From Deltaproteobacteria bacterium (GTDB lineage: Bacteria; Desulfobacterota; Dissulfuribacteria; Dissulfuribacterales; UBA5754): a stretch of 37,919 nucleotides of DNA. Shown in pieces: positions 19,212-37,484 of this stretch. The translations under genes were made by a program, and so were the position numbers. The notes below the pieces were generated by a model. The model was not told where the DNA came from and made no database searches. It was given only the letters and a program-made list of their open reading frames with translations. The number at the start of each line of letters is the position of its first letter. Position 1 is the stretch's first letter. The stretch spans positions 1-37,919 of the forward strand of contig JAINCN010000020.1 in assembly GCA_036574075.1 (NCBI GenBank). Direction: 5' to 3'.

Positions 19212-24541
<5,330 letters not shown>

Positions 24542-30469: not shown

Positions 30470-32230
30470 TCACAGGCGCTGGATATAGCCCCGGCTCTTC
30501 AGATAAAAAAGGATCTCCCTGGCCGCTTCCTCCGGGCTGGTCATGGACGTGTCGATGACGAGATCCGGGTTCTGCGGGGGCTCATACGGATCCTCGATGC
30601 CAGTGACCCCCTTGAGGATTCCGGCCTTGGCCTTGGCGTAGAGCCCCTTTCTGTCCCTAGCCATGCAGACGGAAAGGGGAGTGGAGAGGTAGATCTCTAT
30701 ATAGCCCCCGTAGCGGGAGATGTTTTCCCGGTTCTGGCGGCGGCTTTTTTCATAAGGGGCGATGGGCGCGCAGATGGCGATTCCGCCGTTTTTTGTGATT
30801 TCGCTTGCGACAAATCCGATCCTGAGGACGTTTAGGTGCCGGTGTTCCCGGGAAAATCCGAGTTCGCTCGAGAGGTTTCTCCTGACGATGTCTCCGTCAA
30901 GGAGGGTAACGGGCCGGTCTCCCATTTCCAGGAATTTGGTCTGGAGGATGCGGGCAAGGGTGGATTTGCCGGCCCCCGAGAGCCCGGTGAAGAAGACCGT
31001 GAATCCCTGTCGGCTTCGGGCGGGATAGGCCCGCCTGAGCTCGGCCAGGACATCCGGGTGGACATACCAGGGGGGGATGTCGTGCCCTTGTTCGAGGCGT
31101 TTTCTGAGTTCGCTGTAGGAGAGGCGGCGCGGAAAGGGGGCGTCTCCAGTCAGATCCTCGGGGAGGTATTCGTCTCGGTCCTCGAGATATGCAAAAGGGG
31201 GCAATGGCACCATGGCAACGCCGCATTCCTTTTCAAACCTCTCGCAGAGTTCTCGGGCGGCGAGCCGGGGATAGTAGGGGCTCCGGTCCATGGAGGTGAA
31301 GGGATCCGCGTGGTTCGGTTCCACCACCATGTGGGTGCAGCCGTAGTTTTTGTGGATGATGGCGAGCTGGATGGCCTCCCGAGGTCCGGCAAGGCGCATG
31401 GAGTAGGGGAGGAGGTTCAGGTGCGCAAGACCCTTGGGCAGGGTGCGGACAAAGGCCTCGTGGCACCGGACCCGGGCGAAGTGGTCGATGTCGCCTGGGC
31501 CAGTGTCTCCGGCCACGGGGTGCAGAAGGATGTTCAGACGGTGTTTCTCGGCAAACGACGTGAGAAAGGCCCTGATGCCCTGGTGAAGGATCTTGCGGGT
31601 GGAGATGGCAAGGACCTGAGACCAGCCCGCCCGCTGGAAAAAGGCCCTGAGCTCCGCCGGTGTGAGGCGCAGGGTCCGATAGTCGAAATGCATGGGAAGG
31701 GAGAGACCGGTGACCGGGCCGGAGACGAGAACAGGCCCTTCATCCTCGAGGATACGGGCGACCCCCGGGTGCGTGAGCTCGTCCGTCGAATAGAGCTTGC
31801 GGGCCTCGAGTTTTCTATCCGGTCTCCAGATCTCCTCCACGTCGAGGACCGCTAGCATGAAGCCCTCGGGGTCCCGAAGCGCGGCCCGTGTGCCAGGGGC
31901 GAGACGTTCCGCCGTTTTCTCTGACACCGCGAGGACCACGGGAAGGGGCCAGAGGGTGCCATCGGCAAGGCGCATCTCTTCGAGGACATTTTCGTAGTCG
32001 GCCCTCCCCATGTAGCCTTTGAGCGGGGAGAATCCGCCGCTGACGAGGAGTTCCAGGTCCGAGACCTGACGGGCGTCGAGGTCGATGGACGGATACGCGA
32101 CCGATTTCTCCCGGAGTTTCAACGCCTCGTCAGGGGAGGCGAGAAGGTCGCAAAGTACACCCCCATGGGGCAGGGGAAGACCGTGGATTGTACTCACCAT
32201 GTCTTGATGCACGTCCGTTTCAGTGGTCAT
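30470..32230 (-). CDS. APS kinase fused to a degenerate ATP-sulfurylase-like domain
   Basis: The C-terminal domain is a complete adenylylsulfate kinase: Walker A GLSGAGKST (residues 416-424), LLDGDIVRRNLSSELGF and RDRKGLYAKAKAG. It makes PAPS from APS. The N-terminal 390 residues align with Sat (GGFSPLKGYMGRADYENVL; MRLAGPREAIQLAI; KNYGCTH), but the catalytic motifs are altered. The usual QTRNPxHxxH reads STRKILHQGI (residues 210-219), losing Gln, Asn, Pro and the second His, and the usual GRDHAG reads EPNHAD (304-309). Sulfurylase activity is therefore doubtful. ATG 32230 begins the likely protein; ATG 32200 is an alternative. Neither has a clear ribosome site, and the longer open frame runs through repeats. 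Confidence 0.85.
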   Translation of the reverse strand: MTTETDVHQDMVSTIHGLPLPHGGVLCDLLASPDEALKLREKSVAYPSIDLDARQVSDLELLVSGGFSPLKGYMGRADYENVLEEMRLADGTLWPLPVVLAVSEKTAERLAPGTRAALRDPEGFMLAVLDVEEIWRPDRKLEARKLYSTDELTHPGVARILEDEGPVLVSGPVTGLSLPMHFDYRTLRLTPAELRAFFQRAGWSQVLAISTRKILHQGIRAFLTSFAEKHRLNILLHPVAGDTGPGDIDHFARVRCHEAFVRTLPKGLAHLNLLPYSMRLAGPREAIQLAIIHKNYGCTHMVVEPNHADPFTSMDRSPYYPRLAARELCERFEKECGVAMVPLPPFAYLEDRDEYLPEDLTGDAPFPRRLSYSELRKRLEQGHDIPPWYVHPDVLAELRRAYPARSRQGFTVFFTGLSGAGKSTLARILQTKFLEMGDRPVTLLDGDIVRRNLSSELGFSREHRHLNVLRIGFVASEITKNGGIAICAPIAPYEKSRRQNRENISRYGGYIEIYLSTPLSVCMARDRKGLYAKAKAGILKGVTGIEDPYEPPQNPDLVIDTSMTSPEEAAREILFYLKSRGYIQRL

Positions 32231-32257
32231 GCCGAACGATACCACGGCATTGGTAGG

Positions 32258-32278
32258 GGGCAACCCTTGTGGTTGCCC
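32258..32278. repeat. Palindromic repeat GGGCAACC / GGTTGCCC
   Basis: A perfect 8-bp stem with a 5-base loop lies 28 bases upstream of the Sat-like start codon. Palindromes of this sequence are frequent intergenic repeats in sulfur-cycling and other bacteria. It would fold in the mRNA leader. Confidence 0.7.
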
Positions 32279-32307
32279 ACCATCCCCATGGTTGCACGAA
32301 TGATATT

Positions 32308-32331
32308 GGGGCAGGCACAGGGGCCTGCCCC
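32308..32331. repeat. Palindromic repeat GGGGCAGGC / GCCTGCCCC
   Basis: A perfect 9-bp stem with a 6-base loop lies 30 bases from the palindrome at 32258-32278. The two appear to be members of one intergenic palindrome class. Together with copy R6 they fill the 228-base space between the small secreted protein gene and the Sat-like gene, which holds no other gene. Confidence 0.7.
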
Positions 32332-32403
32332 TACGGAATTGGGGGTGGTAATGCGCCCCAATCACAAATGCGTCCAATTGATTTCGACAGGAAAGGGCAC
32401 GGA

Positions 32404-32457
32404 ATAAATACCCTGGCCACTTAGCACGGCAGCCTGTTAGGCTCACGGATCCAGGGA
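32404..32457 (+). repeat. Structured repeat, partial copy R6
   Basis: AAATACCCTGGCC near 32406 and the terminus GGCTCACGGATCCAGGGA (32440-32457) match the right end of the family. The centre and hairpins are missing. The terminus abuts the stop codon of the gene at 32459. Confidence 0.7.
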
Positions 32458-32458
32458 C

Positions 32459-32917
32459 TCAATAATTACGCCACACATCGCCTTGCTGTTTGAGAATCTG
32501 CCGGCTGTTTCCTTTCTGACGATTCCCGTTACCTCTGGATGCGGTGCTTTCCCCTCTGCCCTGTTCCTCCTTGTTTTCTTTCAGGTGCGAGACGCGTTTG
32601 ATGGAGGTAATGGTCTCCTTTCCGGATAAGGTAAAGGCGACATAGTCGCCTACCTTCAGGGAGCCGTAGGACGTCTGTGTGCCGTTTTCCGTCAGGACGA
32701 TGAGGTTGGGGGCAAGGGAGTAGCCCGAATCGTCGATGACGATCGCTTTTGGGTCGATATGGTCGATGGTCCCGTAAAAATGCGGTTCCTGTTCCATTTG
32801 TTCGATCGGAGAAAGGACCACGCCCTCCTCACACGAAACGATGTCAGGGGAAAGAAGGATCGGTCCGCAAAGGAGCATTATCGCAACTGCCTGGGGTATG
32901 AATCTCTTGCTTTTCAT
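32459..32917 (-). CDS. Small secreted protein of unknown function next to pilY1
   Basis: The 152-residue product has a Sec signal peptide (KSKR, then a hydrophobic run and a cut near SPDIVSCEE). A compact beta-rich middle follows (FYGTIDHIDPKAIVIDDSGY to VGDYVAFTLSG), resembling small OB- or SH3-like periplasmic domains. The tail of about 40 residues is Lys/Arg/Gly/Asn-rich and probably disordered. I do not recognise the family. It starts at ATG 32917 with GGAGG nine bases upstream, follows pilY1 in the same direction after 151 bases, and so is probably part of the pilus-tip operon. A role in PilY1 secretion or pilus assembly is a guess from position only. Confidence 0.7.
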   Translation of the reverse strand: MKSKRFIPQAVAIMLLCGPILLSPDIVSCEEGVVLSPIEQMEQEPHFYGTIDHIDPKAIVIDDSGYSLAPNLIVLTENGTQTSYGSLKVGDYVAFTLSGKETITSIKRVSHLKENKEEQGRGESTASRGNGNRQKGNSRQILKQQGDVWRNY

Positions 32918-33068: not shown

Positions 33069-36000
33069 TCATCTTTCAATCCAGTAATAGAATCCGATCC
33101 TCATGGCCTGTTCCCTCACGGTAACCGTCCCGCCCTGGGCGCTGGCAAAGATCTTGAGTTCCTCAGACTCCCTGTTCGGATTGGAGGGCAGGCGGAGAAA
33201 GACAGGATTGTGGAGGAGGTATGGGTATCCTATCCCAGTCGGCGGAACGGGAACTCCGTTGATCGGTATCGTGTCGTTCGAGTCGATGATGCCGTCACCG
33301 TTGATGTCGAACTGGGGTTTATCGAGACGGGCACCGCTGCATGCGTCCATCTCGTGGAGGATGGACTGTCCACCGCCAGAGCAAGGAGATTCGTTGGGGA
33401 TGAAGGTGAGAAGTATGGCCTTGCCGTCCCGAATGAAGACATCCTTGATGACCCGCTCTCCAGAGATGGGAAGATCGAAGTACCATCCGGCATGGGCGAT
33501 GGCCTCGTCCGCTTCGTCTGTGACTCCGTCTCCATCATTGTCCTCATTGTCAGTGGATGTCACTGAACCACCTGGGTTTGTCTTCTGGGGCGCAGTATCA
33601 GGTACCGTGTACCAATGGGCCTTGTTGTCCGTAAGCGTCCTCAGATAATGGCCCATGTAATTCCGTTCGTCTATGACCTCCTGCTTGAGTAGTGTCACGT
33701 CCGCCGGTTGGTTCGAAAGCCTTCCGTCCGCCCGGTTGAACGATCCGAGATATTCACTATCGTCCGCATCGTCTCCATAGTCCCAGATCCCATAGACACT
33801 CTGGATGGTGGCATCGGTCCGGTCTGCGTCGCAGAGATATTTACCTGTGCCGAAGACGACCATGTATCCGTGTTCTTTGCAGTGCTTCATGACATCAGGT
33901 CGTGTGGTAATGGGCTGACCCAACGCCTGGAAGAGGGGCTGGGGGTTGGTCCCGTCCGAGAAGGCGATCTCCCAGTTTGCAGGGTCCCCCTTGAGCCCCT
34001 TGAGATCGAATTTCCAGAGGTTTCCCTTGAGGTCCCCGGCATATGCGTAATCGGCCACGAAATCGGCGTTTACGTCCACAACTGCTGGGGTAGAGAGGCC
34101 GTTGTCGCCTCCGATGCCAGTGTCGATCTTGCGGATGAGCTGGCCGTTCAGCGCATCCACCACATAGAGGACCGCGTTACCGTTTGCACTTCCGTAACCG
34201 TTTCCGAAGATGACGGCCCAGCGTTTGCCACCAGGCTTGGTTGTATCCCTGACCTGTACGATGCTCGGGACGCTGAAGCTGTAGCCCATGTCAGGATCAG
34301 GCGAGGAAGGAAACTCCCAAAGGACACGGGAAGCGGCCGATGTCTCGTCCGTTATCAGCTCGGCGTTTTCGATATCAAGGGCGAAGTACCCTTTGCCGCC
34401 CTTTCCGAGGCCGCCGACGAGAAGGGTCTGGGTGGAGCTGATCTCCTTTGCCACTGGTGAGAGGTCCACAAAGAACTTGTGATTACTCTGGTACGAGGGG
34501 TCGGCCAGGGCCGGAAGGTTTTCGTACACAAACCCTGGCACATACGCAAATCGTTCATTTCCCGTTTCTGTATCAAAGGCGTGGAGCATGCCGTCGTTTC
34601 CGCCTACATAAATGGTATTATCCACGAGGAGGGGGGCGGAGTGAACGAGGTCGCCGAGCTTGCGGGAACGGGCCCGAAATCCGCTCACCTCCTTCCCCCT
34701 GATGAAGTCCACGATGTTTCTGGCCTTCGTGTCATCCGTGCCCCATGCGGGGTCAAGGGCGGTTTTCTGTTGATCGGAAAGGCGGTCGAAACGGAAGGGG
34801 ACGCCATTCGTTCCGTTGTGGGTCACGATGACGCGGCCCGTGTCCCAGTCCTGTAGCTGGAGCTGGTCGGAGGCACTCCAGAGGATGTCGCTCGGTTCCC
34901 TTTTGATCTCTCCTGTCAGGGGGTCAACGGGAAAGGCCTGGAGGTCCCCGGTCCATTGGGATCCGTCATAGGAAGACTGATAAAGGACGGTACCTGAGTT
35001 CAGCTCCTCGCTGTTTACGGAGACAGAGGCCCCGGATGCGAGGCGCCCCTCGATGTTTTCCATGATGGAATGAATGGATTCCACGAGTTCCTCTGGGTTT
35101 GCTGCGCTGAAGAAGGCCCCGCGCCCGTTCACCGAGGCGTGCCAGAGGTCGTCGATCTTGTATGGGCATGCCCAGCAACTGTGTGGATTCGGCCAGACTG
35201 GGGCGGAAAGGATCCCTGCCTTTACGTTCTGCAGGCATGGATCCGTGCCGTTTTGCGTGTAATATGGCACGTCGAGGCTCCCGTAAAGCCCGAATGAGAC
35301 CCCATATGTCACCATGTGCTGGTGGGATGCATCGTCACAGGAATTGGTGGGGACTATGTTGTCCAGGCCGTTGGCAAGATCCTCCTTGTAGAACTTCATG
35401 GCCACGTCGGCGAGGGTGTCCGAGTTCCCGTCTGCGTACGGGCTTCCTTGATCGCCGTCCTGGTTGCCTACGCCTGGGTCGCTTCCGTTCCAGTAGCCAT
35501 CGGTCATGACGATGGAAAAGGCCTGCTGGCATGCGCCACCATCTTCGGGCAGGGTCCACGGCGCAGATCCAAGGTTTCCTGTCAGCCCGTCGTCCGCGTC
35601 AAAGTACCTGCCCACGTCGAGGAGCGCCGTCCGTAAGGGTGTCCCGCCGTCTGAATCGATCCCGTAGAGCCGGTCGAGGAGCTGGTCGGTCGAGTCCACG
35701 TTTACGGAGCCAGAGGTAAACTCGAACTTCACCGCATCGGCGAGCGTGCTATGACCGTTGCTCCCAGAGTGCCTTTCCACCTTTACTTTTCCACTTGTCC
35801 CTGCGTTAAAGGTGTAGGTCCCCAGTGAGACCCACTCTCCGCAGACATTGCCGGGTTCCATCCTCTGGTTTTTGTACACGATCGTGTCTCCGCCGGCATG
35901 GGTGATAGTATATTTTGCATGCTGATCCCGGTTATTATAGCAGTTCCACCAGGCATATACGGTATAGTCCCCAGATTGTGGTAGATTTGGGGTCCATGTT

Positions 36001-37484
36001 GCATATCTTCCGCTCGTTGTTGTGTAACGTGCATTGTTGTTATACGGATTCGGCGAACCTGAATTGTACCATCCGCTCGTTTCGCTATACGCGCTGTCTT
36101 TGTTGTCCACGATTATGGCATCCGTATAGACCTTTATGGGCAGGACCGGCTGTCTGACCCCTGTGTTGATGGTGTAGATCCCGACATAGACCCTTTCGAG
36201 ATCCGCGATCGAACGGGAGACCGCCGCCTTGGCCGTGAGTTCCCGTCTCCTATAGTAGCTGAACCAGTTGGCGAAGTTCTGGAGATCTTCGAGATCCGTT
36301 TTGTAACGCACGAAATTTCCCTGTTCGTCGTACACCTTTGGCCTGATGCTGTCCGGGACCTCTGCAATGGTCCGCAGGACGAGCTCTCCGGTCTCTATAA
36401 GATCGTCGGCTCTGATGAACTGATAGTATTCCCGGGTCCAGTTGGTCCCGTTGTGAACGAAGTTCACGAGCCAGACCTCGCCTGGGTCTATTACCTCGTC
36501 GCCATCGGCGTCATTTACTGCAAAATAGTGGGCGTTTCTGATGTCCACTTTTAAGGTAGGCCCGGTATAGTCGAACTTTACTGCGTCCGCGACAGTCGAA
36601 TCCCCGGTGCTTGCCGCATGACGCGAAATTCTGACGCTACCTGTTCTACCTTGGGCAAACTGGTACTGACCAAGGGGGATCCATTCTCCGCAGACCCCGG
36701 GCTTGGGCGTATTATTCTGATCCGCTCGCTGGTCCTTGTAAATAATGGTAGGGGACCCTGTGGAGTCGATGATCGTGATCTTTGCATTAGTGTCGCTATA
36801 TGTGCTGCAGGGCCACCAGGCGGAGACGTCATAGCTTCCCGTAAAAGGGATGGACGGGGTGAAGACGGCCTCGCTCCCGTTGACTCTGGTATCATATGAA
36901 GATCCATTGTATTCCGGCCAGTGATTCGATTCTCTCCAGGTCCCCGTTTTCCTGAACGCAGGGTAGCGGTCCTTATTGTCAACGATGACTGTCCCCTCAT
37001 CGAGACTAAGATAAACGTCGTTAAGATCGATGGTTGGTGTGTCGTACTCGGGATTGGAACGAGGGTATCTGGTATCTGCGTTTTGGTGGTTAGGCCACGG
37101 CAGATAGGTTACGTGTTGATTGTAGAAGATCCGGTTGTATCCGCTCCACCGGGTCTTCCAGTAGCCCTTTGCTGCACCGTCAAGATGACTTCTATAGACG
37201 TTGTCATCAAGGTCGTAAATATATTGATAATAGGTTCCGGAGGCCCAGAACATGCCCTCTGTATCCTCGGTCAAAAACTCCCAGTCCATGCTTCCCGAGT
37301 TGTCATAGACGAACATGATGTTTGGCGGCGGGGAAAGGACGGAGGTCTCCATGGGGATGTCGCTGACGCAGGCGGCGTGGAGGGGGACGGCCTCCCACGG
37401 GATGATGAGCCCAAGGGTTGTGAGAAACGTCACTATGCCGTTGACGCGCCTTTTCCACCCGTTGCAGAAGATCCTGTTTCTCAT
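33069..37484 (-). CDS. pilY1: PilY1-like type IV pilus tip adhesin with two golvesin-like modules
   Basis: The 1471-residue protein has a signal peptide (cleaved near HAACVSD), a von Willebrand A domain with metal site DNSGSM (residues 61-66) continuing at SDGGTPLRTAL (about 609) and MTDGYWNG (about 665), and the PilY1 beta-propeller (about 930-1300) with APLLVDNTIYVGGNDGMLHA. A calcium-loop candidate, DVNADFVADY, lies near 1135, and DINGDGIIDSND near 1391. Inserted in the vWA part are two homologous modules of about 135 residues (about 166-305 and 456-590), each running from IVDNKD to ADAVKF with a WTPxLP- and CGEW-type core, resembling golvesin-like carbohydrate-binding domains. PilY1 promotes pilus extension and adhesion. 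AAGGGGGCGAG precedes the ATG. Confidence 0.92.
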   Translation of the reverse strand: MRNRIFCNGWKRRVNGIVTFLTTLGLIIPWEAVPLHAACVSDIPMETSVLSPPPNIMFVYDNSGSMDWEFLTEDTEGMFWASGTYYQYIYDLDDNVYRSHLDGAAKGYWKTRWSGYNRIFYNQHVTYLPWPNHQNADTRYPRSNPEYDTPTIDLNDVYLSLDEGTVIVDNKDRYPAFRKTGTWRESNHWPEYNGSSYDTRVNGSEAVFTPSIPFTGSYDVSAWWPCSTYSDTNAKITIIDSTGSPTIIYKDQRADQNNTPKPGVCGEWIPLGQYQFAQGRTGSVRISRHAASTGDSTVADAVKFDYTGPTLKVDIRNAHYFAVNDADGDEVIDPGEVWLVNFVHNGTNWTREYYQFIRADDLIETGELVLRTIAEVPDSIRPKVYDEQGNFVRYKTDLEDLQNFANWFSYYRRRELTAKAAVSRSIADLERVYVGIYTINTGVRQPVLPIKVYTDAIIVDNKDSAYSETSGWYNSGSPNPYNNNARYTTTSGRYATWTPNLPQSGDYTVYAWWNCYNNRDQHAKYTITHAGGDTIVYKNQRMEPGNVCGEWVSLGTYTFNAGTSGKVKVERHSGSNGHSTLADAVKFEFTSGSVNVDSTDQLLDRLYGIDSDGGTPLRTALLDVGRYFDADDGLTGNLGSAPWTLPEDGGACQQAFSIVMTDGYWNGSDPGVGNQDGDQGSPYADGNSDTLADVAMKFYKEDLANGLDNIVPTNSCDDASHQHMVTYGVSFGLYGSLDVPYYTQNGTDPCLQNVKAGILSAPVWPNPHSCWACPYKIDDLWHASVNGRGAFFSAANPEELVESIHSIMENIEGRLASGASVSVNSEELNSGTVLYQSSYDGSQWTGDLQAFPVDPLTGEIKREPSDILWSASDQLQLQDWDTGRVIVTHNGTNGVPFRFDRLSDQQKTALDPAWGTDDTKARNIVDFIRGKEVSGFRARSRKLGDLVHSAPLLVDNTIYVGGNDGMLHAFDTETGNERFAYVPGFVYENLPALADPSYQSNHKFFVDLSPVAKEISSTQTLLVGGLGKGGKGYFALDIENAELITDETSAASRVLWEFPSSPDPDMGYSFSVPSIVQVRDTTKPGGKRWAVIFGNGYGSANGNAVLYVVDALNGQLIRKIDTGIGGDNGLSTPAVVDVNADFVADYAYAGDLKGNLWKFDLKGLKGDPANWEIAFSDGTNPQPLFQALGQPITTRPDVMKHCKEHGYMVVFGTGKYLCDADRTDATIQSVYGIWDYGDDADDSEYLGSFNRADGRLSNQPADVTLLKQEVIDERNYMGHYLRTLTDNKAHWYTVPDTAPQKTNPGGSVTSTDNEDNDGDGVTDEADEAIAHAGWYFDLPISGERVIKDVFIRDGKAILLTFIPNESPCSGGGQSILHEMDACSGARLDKPQFDINGDGIIDSNDTIPINGVPVPPTGIGYPYLLHNPVFLRLPSNPNRESEELKIFASAQGGTVTVREQAMRIGFYYWIER

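Follow-up and report, generated by a model that had tools for sequence, protein, structure and literature searches.

Two CBM35-like golvesin modules at separate sites in the vWA domain of a desulfobacterotal PilY1, a putative polysaccharide-binding pilus-tip adhesin

PilY1 tips determine what type IV pili grip, and the gene examined here raises the question of how such a tip might change its target. The gene, pilY1, lies in a contig of a deltaproteobacterium of the Dissulfuribacterales (assembly GCA_036574075.1, contig JAINCN010000020.1); the whole stretch of 37,919 nucleotides that was analysed is called the window. A preliminary description of its sequence had recognized a PilY1 adhesin with a pair of golvesin-like modules in its von Willebrand factor A (vWA) region. 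What are these modules, where do they sit, how did they arise and what could they do at the tip of a pilus? The computations reveal two modules with a fold of carbohydrate-binding module (CBM) type, occupying two sites, together with recurrence of such modules at the same sites in relatives and exchange for a PPC-like domain at site 1.

Two modules at two sites of the vWA domain

The identity of the protein as a PilY1 tip adhesin is upheld at both ends. A C-terminal beta-propeller matches T4P_PilY1 (PF05567) at E 1.3e-54 (186.2 bits against a cut-off of 28.1), and the vWA region carries a complete metal ion-dependent adhesion site (MIDAS; DxSxS, T and D), whose residues D61, S63, S65, T615 and D662 are invariant across 16 aligned PilY1 proteins. 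The equivalog model for Neisseria PilC (NF040838), the sole NCBIfam match, scored 109.8 bits, below its curated NCBIfam cut-off of 350, and the name PilC was therefore not adopted.

The profile search that the preliminary description had proposed for residues 166-305 and 456-590 matched both segments independently to Golvesin_C (PF25275; cut-off 31.6 bits). Module 1 scores 86.3 bits (36573-36989, residues 166-304) and module 2 scores 97.2 bits (35721-36116, residues 457-588). These are the only two Golvesin_C matches in the window's own genome, and both lie inside the pilY1 frame. Against our own golvesin profile, the seed of which includes the window modules, module 1 reaches 127 bits. The segments also resemble each other, with 44% identity over 141 columns (BLASTP 112 bits) and a Smith-Waterman score of 306. 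Scores of 1000 shuffles averaged 33.8 and never exceeded 67, and comparisons of module 1 with stretches elsewhere in the protein gave 20-36. The shared order of motifs described earlier holds for IVDNKD, SAWW or YAWW, CGEW and ADAVKF (residues 167, 221, 265 and 299 in module 1; 458, 510, 548 and 582 in module 2), but WTP is confined to module 2 (497), module 1 having FTP at 208. Each module contains a cysteine pair, C226/C265 in module 1 and C515/C548 in module 2.

Structure prediction agrees with the golvesin-type fold expected from sequence. In an AlphaFold2 model of residues 51-818, built from 38 sequences (model residue i is protein residue i+50; mean predicted local distance difference test score 90.8, predicted template modelling score 0.79), both modules are beta-sandwiches. 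Module 2 matches the C-terminal domain of the Paenibacillus xanthan lyase 6F2P at E 1.1e-14, and a profile of 11 modules searched against the PDB finds 6F2P at E 9.1e-30, with a weaker match to the CBM35 of exo-chitosanase CsxA (2VZP; E 0.0011). Structural alignment to 6F2P gave a VIA Z of 19.9 for 267 residues over both modules, with a root-mean-square deviation of 29.7 A that reflects a different placement of the two domains relative to each other. Alignments were also obtained to the CBM35 3ZM8 (Z 13.1, 126 residues, 2.5 A), to MiXBM 7EHG (Z 12.5, 128 residues, 2.7 A) and to the uronate-bound CBM35 2W47 (Z 12.2, 129 residues, 3.0 A). As modelled, the modules are thus CBM35-like beta-sandwiches that can be aligned to solved CBM35 structures, their nearest solved folds being 6F2P and CBM35 modules.

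Both modules interrupt the vWA domain between its metal site and the later threonine and aspartate, as first described, with D61-S65 before them and T615 and D662 after them. They do not, however, form one tandem insert; they occupy two sites about 150 residues apart. Between them lie the NAHYF hairpin region, helix 1 (QNFANWFSYYRRRE) and strands 2 and 3 (VYVGIYTIN and RQPVLPI). In model numbering, strand 1 (5-10) is followed by module 1 (~112-260), helix 1 (347-378), strand 2 (382-388), strand 3 (394-400), module 2 (~406-541), helix 2 (549-557) and strand 4 (605-611), which leads into TDG. The insert-free relative L118, modelled with a mean local score of 75.8, has the same order of elements. 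Among the 50 matches listed, its model aligns to vWA domains of pilus proteins, namely the pilus-tip protein Mfa5 (Z 18.0), PilB (17.1) and SpaC (16.8); RrgA was not one of the 50, which carries no weight either way. From the element order in the two models, site 1 is the connection between strand 1 and helix 1, a connection that is long already in PilY1 generally, and site 2 is the loop between strand 3 and helix 2. Relatives that lack module 2 have strand 3 and helix 2 joined directly here, for example by VLYLNTHQDELY in G029.

Distribution and history of the modules

Relatives were examined in three samples, comprising 60 related genomes, 395 genomes of the phylum and 80 PilY1 loci from named genomes. 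Golvesin_C was found in 5 of the 60 relatives and T4P_PilY1 in 36, the corresponding counts for the phylum being 20 and 202. The two families share one frame in at least 7 of the 395 genomes (the window's, G027, G080, G199, G348, G365 and G418), and in G145 they appear to be split over two contigs. A scan of the 80 loci, using a golvesin profile to which the window and its relatives had contributed some of the sequences, found golvesin modules inside the vWA region of 17 (L094, L095, L096, L098, L100, L101, L102, L104, L107, L108, L113, L114, L115, L116, L120, L151 and L159). All 17 belong to a set of 30 with mostly deltaproteobacterial titles (L094-L121, L151 and L159), in three of which (L105, L106 and L110) the sequence stops before site 1; the same scan found no golvesin module in the vWA region of the other 50. 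Pfam confirmation among the 80 loci covers ten segments and site 2 of L104. Golvesin was recovered in six of the ten but not in L097, L099, L103 or the site-1 stretch of L104; at site 2 of L104 it was confirmed.

Site-2 modules occur at five of the 80 loci (L094, L095, L096, L098 and L104), as well as in the window and G030, and all of these except L104 have both sites filled; L094 lies on the same contig as G348. In L104, from Desulfobotulus alkaliphilus ASO4-4, the golvesin module is at site 2 only, and the site-1 insert (L104:6352-7332) matched no Pfam family at E 0.1. A second mode of doubling, in which site 1 carries two consecutive golvesin modules, is seen in L108, L113, L151, L159 and G365 (L090). 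In seven PilY1 proteins of the window's own order (G017, G020, G029, G039, G041 and both of G044), a PPC-like domain takes the place of golvesin at site 1, and nothing is inserted at site 2. This insert scored at best 19.2 bits against PPC (PF04151), under the Pfam cut-off of 25.9, yet a profile of it aligns to PPC domains at the N-termini of other PilY1 proteins with hhalign E 6.2e-25, hence the name PPC-like. Relatives that swap, double or lose modules suggest a modular way of altering the grip of the pilus.

Related proteins show further variety. Three frames with at least three golvesin modules each, L087 (G201, 2295 aa), L088 (G066, 1198 aa) and L089 (G245, 1157 aa), had no PilY1 match in the same frame. 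Long N-terminal extensions of 354-1127 aa precede the vWA domain in several of L100, L101, L108, L114, L116, L119, L120, L121 and L151. The extension of L116 has Calx-beta and MopE-type metal-binding motifs, those of L120 and L151 have PPC domains, and those of L119 and L121 have MopE-like repeats by eye.

The order in which the modules arose was approached through two trees, one of the PilY1 core (34 rows, 755 columns; the row of G027 begins early, just before its TPLR) and one of the modules (44 rows). The core tree gathers all seven proteins with a site-2 module into a single group of 17 rows, weakly supported (88/67), which also holds the PPC-bearing genes, G027 and the module-free L112 and L118. 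One gain of module 2 followed by several losses is the simplest reading that this weakly supported group suggests. The module tree places four site-1 modules (window, L095, L098 and L114) with site-2 modules (98/98) and gathers the site-1 modules of G030, L094, L096, G199 and G027 in a separate clade (97/97). For the topology tests, groups were chosen after inspection of the tree. Forcing the six site-1 modules of double proteins together was rejected (p-AU 4.6e-6), whereas a single clade for all site-2 modules was neither recovered nor rejected (p-AU 0.092). Forcing a site-1 module to join the classical ones gave marginal results, with p 0.043 for the window (weakly rejected), 0.072 for L095 and 0.052 for L098. 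The site-2 module of L104 has a very long branch and is placed unsurely. An independent character, the cysteine pair, is present in 6 of 46 modules: the two of the window, the two of L098, and those at site 2 in L094 and L095. The site-1 module of L095 is without it, so agreement with the module tree is partial.

Since the window's module 1 falls with site-2 modules and has their cysteine pair, it probably arose by copying from a module of site-2 type, judging from sequence relationships. This reverses the order given in the preliminary description, which had seen in the composition of module 2 a fit to later acquisition. The end branch of module 2, which lies among site-2 modules from other genera, is short (0.15), and it is module 1, on a branch of 0.79, that looks displaced, in the direction of the site-2 type. 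The observation behind the earlier view does stand, as the first half of module 2 has a GC content of 47.5% (0.50 at third codon positions) against 55.8% (0.68) for the whole gene and contains the gene's lowest-GC windows of 201 nt. Part of this reflects its composition, Asn, Thr, Ser and Tyr making up 38.5% of the residues of module 2; the low GC is real, yet it is no demonstration of recent arrival. A recent gain of module 2 by horizontal transfer could also draw on the same-genus genome G001 (83% complete), which gave no Golvesin_C match and has only a distantly related PilY1 (L048, 1509 aa), so that possession of the two-module gene may vary even between members of the genus. We nonetheless regard such a transfer as very unlikely, given that the same site is filled by related modules in G030, L094, L095, L096, L098 and L104, that the core tree unites the seven carriers, if weakly, and that the window's site-2 module falls among the others partly in core-tree order, with unresolved forks.

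The scatter of two-module genes might instead reflect movement of whole pilY1 genes between lineages rather than loss and swapping of modules. Both modules are present in G030 and in L094, which is from outside the window's order, whereas the closest relatives within the order carry PPC-like domains; L083, on the same contig as L094, is 47.8% identical to the window protein over nearly its full length, and the core tree fits the named groups only loosely. However, the window's sister group in that tree comprises G027 and the genes with PPC-like domains from its own order (98/94), for which vertical descent with module change is a simple explanation, and we consider whole-gene transfer improbable, though a good deal less so than the recent arrival of module 2. 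The window, L095 and L098 have site-1 modules of site-2 type, and the close core relatives L096 (of L095) and G030 (of L098) keep the classical site-1 module. It is tempting, if still short of an even chance, to picture the desulfobacterotal PilY1 vWA domain as a cassette with two slots, where copying of CBM-like modules between the slots of one gene diversifies the tip. Lying in the path of force through a mechanosensing domain, the modules could let glycan capture feed directly into surface sensing.

Putative function at the pilus tip

The interpretation that we favour, and hold somewhat likelier to be right than wrong, is that the window encodes a desulfobacterotal PilY1 adhesin of the type IV pilus tip whose vWA domain, with its MIDAS, displays two CBM35-like golvesin modules as putative polysaccharide binders that pass force to it. 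The propeller would dock on minor pilins at the pilus tip, the modules would bind a glycosylated surface or a polysaccharide outside the cell, and they would be pulled as the pilus retracts. Because the modules lie in loops beside strands 1 and 3 and not at a chain end, a pull on bound glycan would load the metal-binding domain directly, coupling glycan capture to the force response of the vWA domain. If modules at the two sites were swapped, doubled or lost, the target would change with no rebuilding of the tip. By analogy with related domains, binding of glycans is a plausible prediction; for a sheath, which had also been proposed as the target, nothing in the evidence examined points that way. 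Exchangeable CBM-like modules at fixed vWA sites would offer a concrete and testable route for changing tip specificity, and would place a possible glycan sensor inside a domain thought to sense force.

Several points weigh against this interpretation. Pfam gives no VWA match for the window protein, and the match of L118 is under the cut-off, so the vWA assignment rests on motif, alignment and models. The most conserved columns among the modules (W472, W497, Y507, Q540, W551 and D583) may be structural, and CBM-like beta-sandwiches often have no sugar-binding role, many being structural parts of large proteins. The modules could accordingly be spacers or stalks that hold the vWA domain off the pilus or stiffen it and have no ligand of their own, which the acceptance of unrelated beta-sandwich domains at site 1 (one golvesin, two golvesins, PPC-like) would suit. 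We give this explanation about one chance in a few. Exchange of whole modules and the divergence between them fit a ligand-facing role better, and PilY1 has no general need of modules, the golvesin scan having found none at the 50 loci beyond the set of 30. Related domains, moreover, bind glycans, the CBMs from two Bacteroides lectins, Cbeg4 and Cbeg5, having bound N-glycans on an array (PMC9166713).

Gene neighbourhood

The features of the locus are collected in Table 1. The fragment upstream of pilY1 resembles the segment directly upstream of pilY1 in L047 (tblastn E 1e-7), L044 and L039, and is probably a minor pilin gene of the pilY1 operon; that name is given by position and similarity, as no NCBIfam model matched the fragment. 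Stretches like the small downstream gene also follow pilY1 in L046 and L047. Close downstream of this region is a gene for a bifunctional sulfate adenylyltransferase/adenylylsulfate kinase (30470-32446, minus strand). Elsewhere in the window, a 1449-aa frame (19212-23561, minus strand) is matched by pyruvate, phosphate dikinase models under their cut-offs, with a long N-terminal part outside the best-match stretch.

Table 1. Coordinates of pilY1, its domains and its neighbours in the window.
Feature	Coordinates	Strand	Basis
pilY1	33069..37484	minus	1471 aa open frame; T4P_PilY1 match
MIDAS motif DNSGS, residues 61-65, end of vWA strand 1	37290..37304	minus	Motif search and alignment
Module 1 (site 1), Golvesin_C, residues 166-305	36570..36989	minus	Pfam, own profile and fold
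vWA segment between modules	36120..36569	minus	Alignment and model secondary structure
Module 2 (site 2), Golvesin_C, residues 456-590	35715..36119	minus	Pfam and 6F2P match
MIDAS threonine T615 (GGTPLR)	35640..35642	minus	Motif search and alignment
MIDAS aspartate D662 (MTDG)	35499..35501	minus	Motif search and alignment
PilY1 beta-propeller, residues 957-1238	33771..34616	minus	PF05567
Upstream gene, C-terminal part, truncated at contig end	37497..37919	minus	tblastn to pilY1-upstream segments of relatives
Small PilY2-like gene directly downstream of pilY1	32459..32917	minus	Fimbrial_PilY2 E 0.048, under cut-off

Relation to known systems

We take IPR033803 to be the same domain as Golvesin_C, which fits the xanthan lyase and golvesin examples of the IPR033803 paper. 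The window modules share Golvesin_C with xanthan lyases and Bacteroides lectins, but those are secreted enzymes and lectins, not pilus-tip proteins. In the sources drawn on here in part, PilY1 is described as a tip protein joined through its C-terminal part to minor pilins, with a vWA domain linked to adhesion and force response (PMC10374093; PMC8179133), and has been flagged as an adhesion candidate in sulfate reducers of tight consortia (PMC10553843). Seep-SRB2 is a member of the Dissulfuribacterales (PMC10553843).

Modular PilY1 proteins are already known. A survey of modular pilins and PilC/PilY1 reports 68 PilC/PilY1 architectures from InterPro and a PilB vWA domain flanked by two arms (PMC8179133). 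The idea of a carrier plus effector is common to both cases; in the portion of that survey used here the modules are N-terminal, whereas those of the window lie inside the vWA domain. The searches made of open-licence papers listed no golvesin-bearing PilY1 vWA domain, although the set of 68 architectures may hold a golvesin entry. Golvesin modules within the vWA domain are a new variation on a known theme, and a wider one than first described. Two inserted segments in the vWA domain of a pilus adhesin recall the two-armed RrgA and PilB, whose arms flank the MIDAS, as the modules here may also do; RrgA and PilB belong to other pilus types (sortase pili for RrgA) and their arms have other folds.

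The nearest precedent for an insert within a PilY1 vWA domain is the finger of Acinetobacter ComC. Its deletion had the same outcome as loss of comC: twitching and DNA uptake were abolished and adhesion was reduced (PMC10374093). Like the window protein, ComC is, in the part of that study drawn on, a PilY1-type tip adhesin with lineage-specific insertions at differing positions of the vWA domain (PMC10374093). The finger, however, is a Tyr-rich protrusion, whereas the window inserts are complete CBM35-like domains, placed at two sites and subject to domain exchange.

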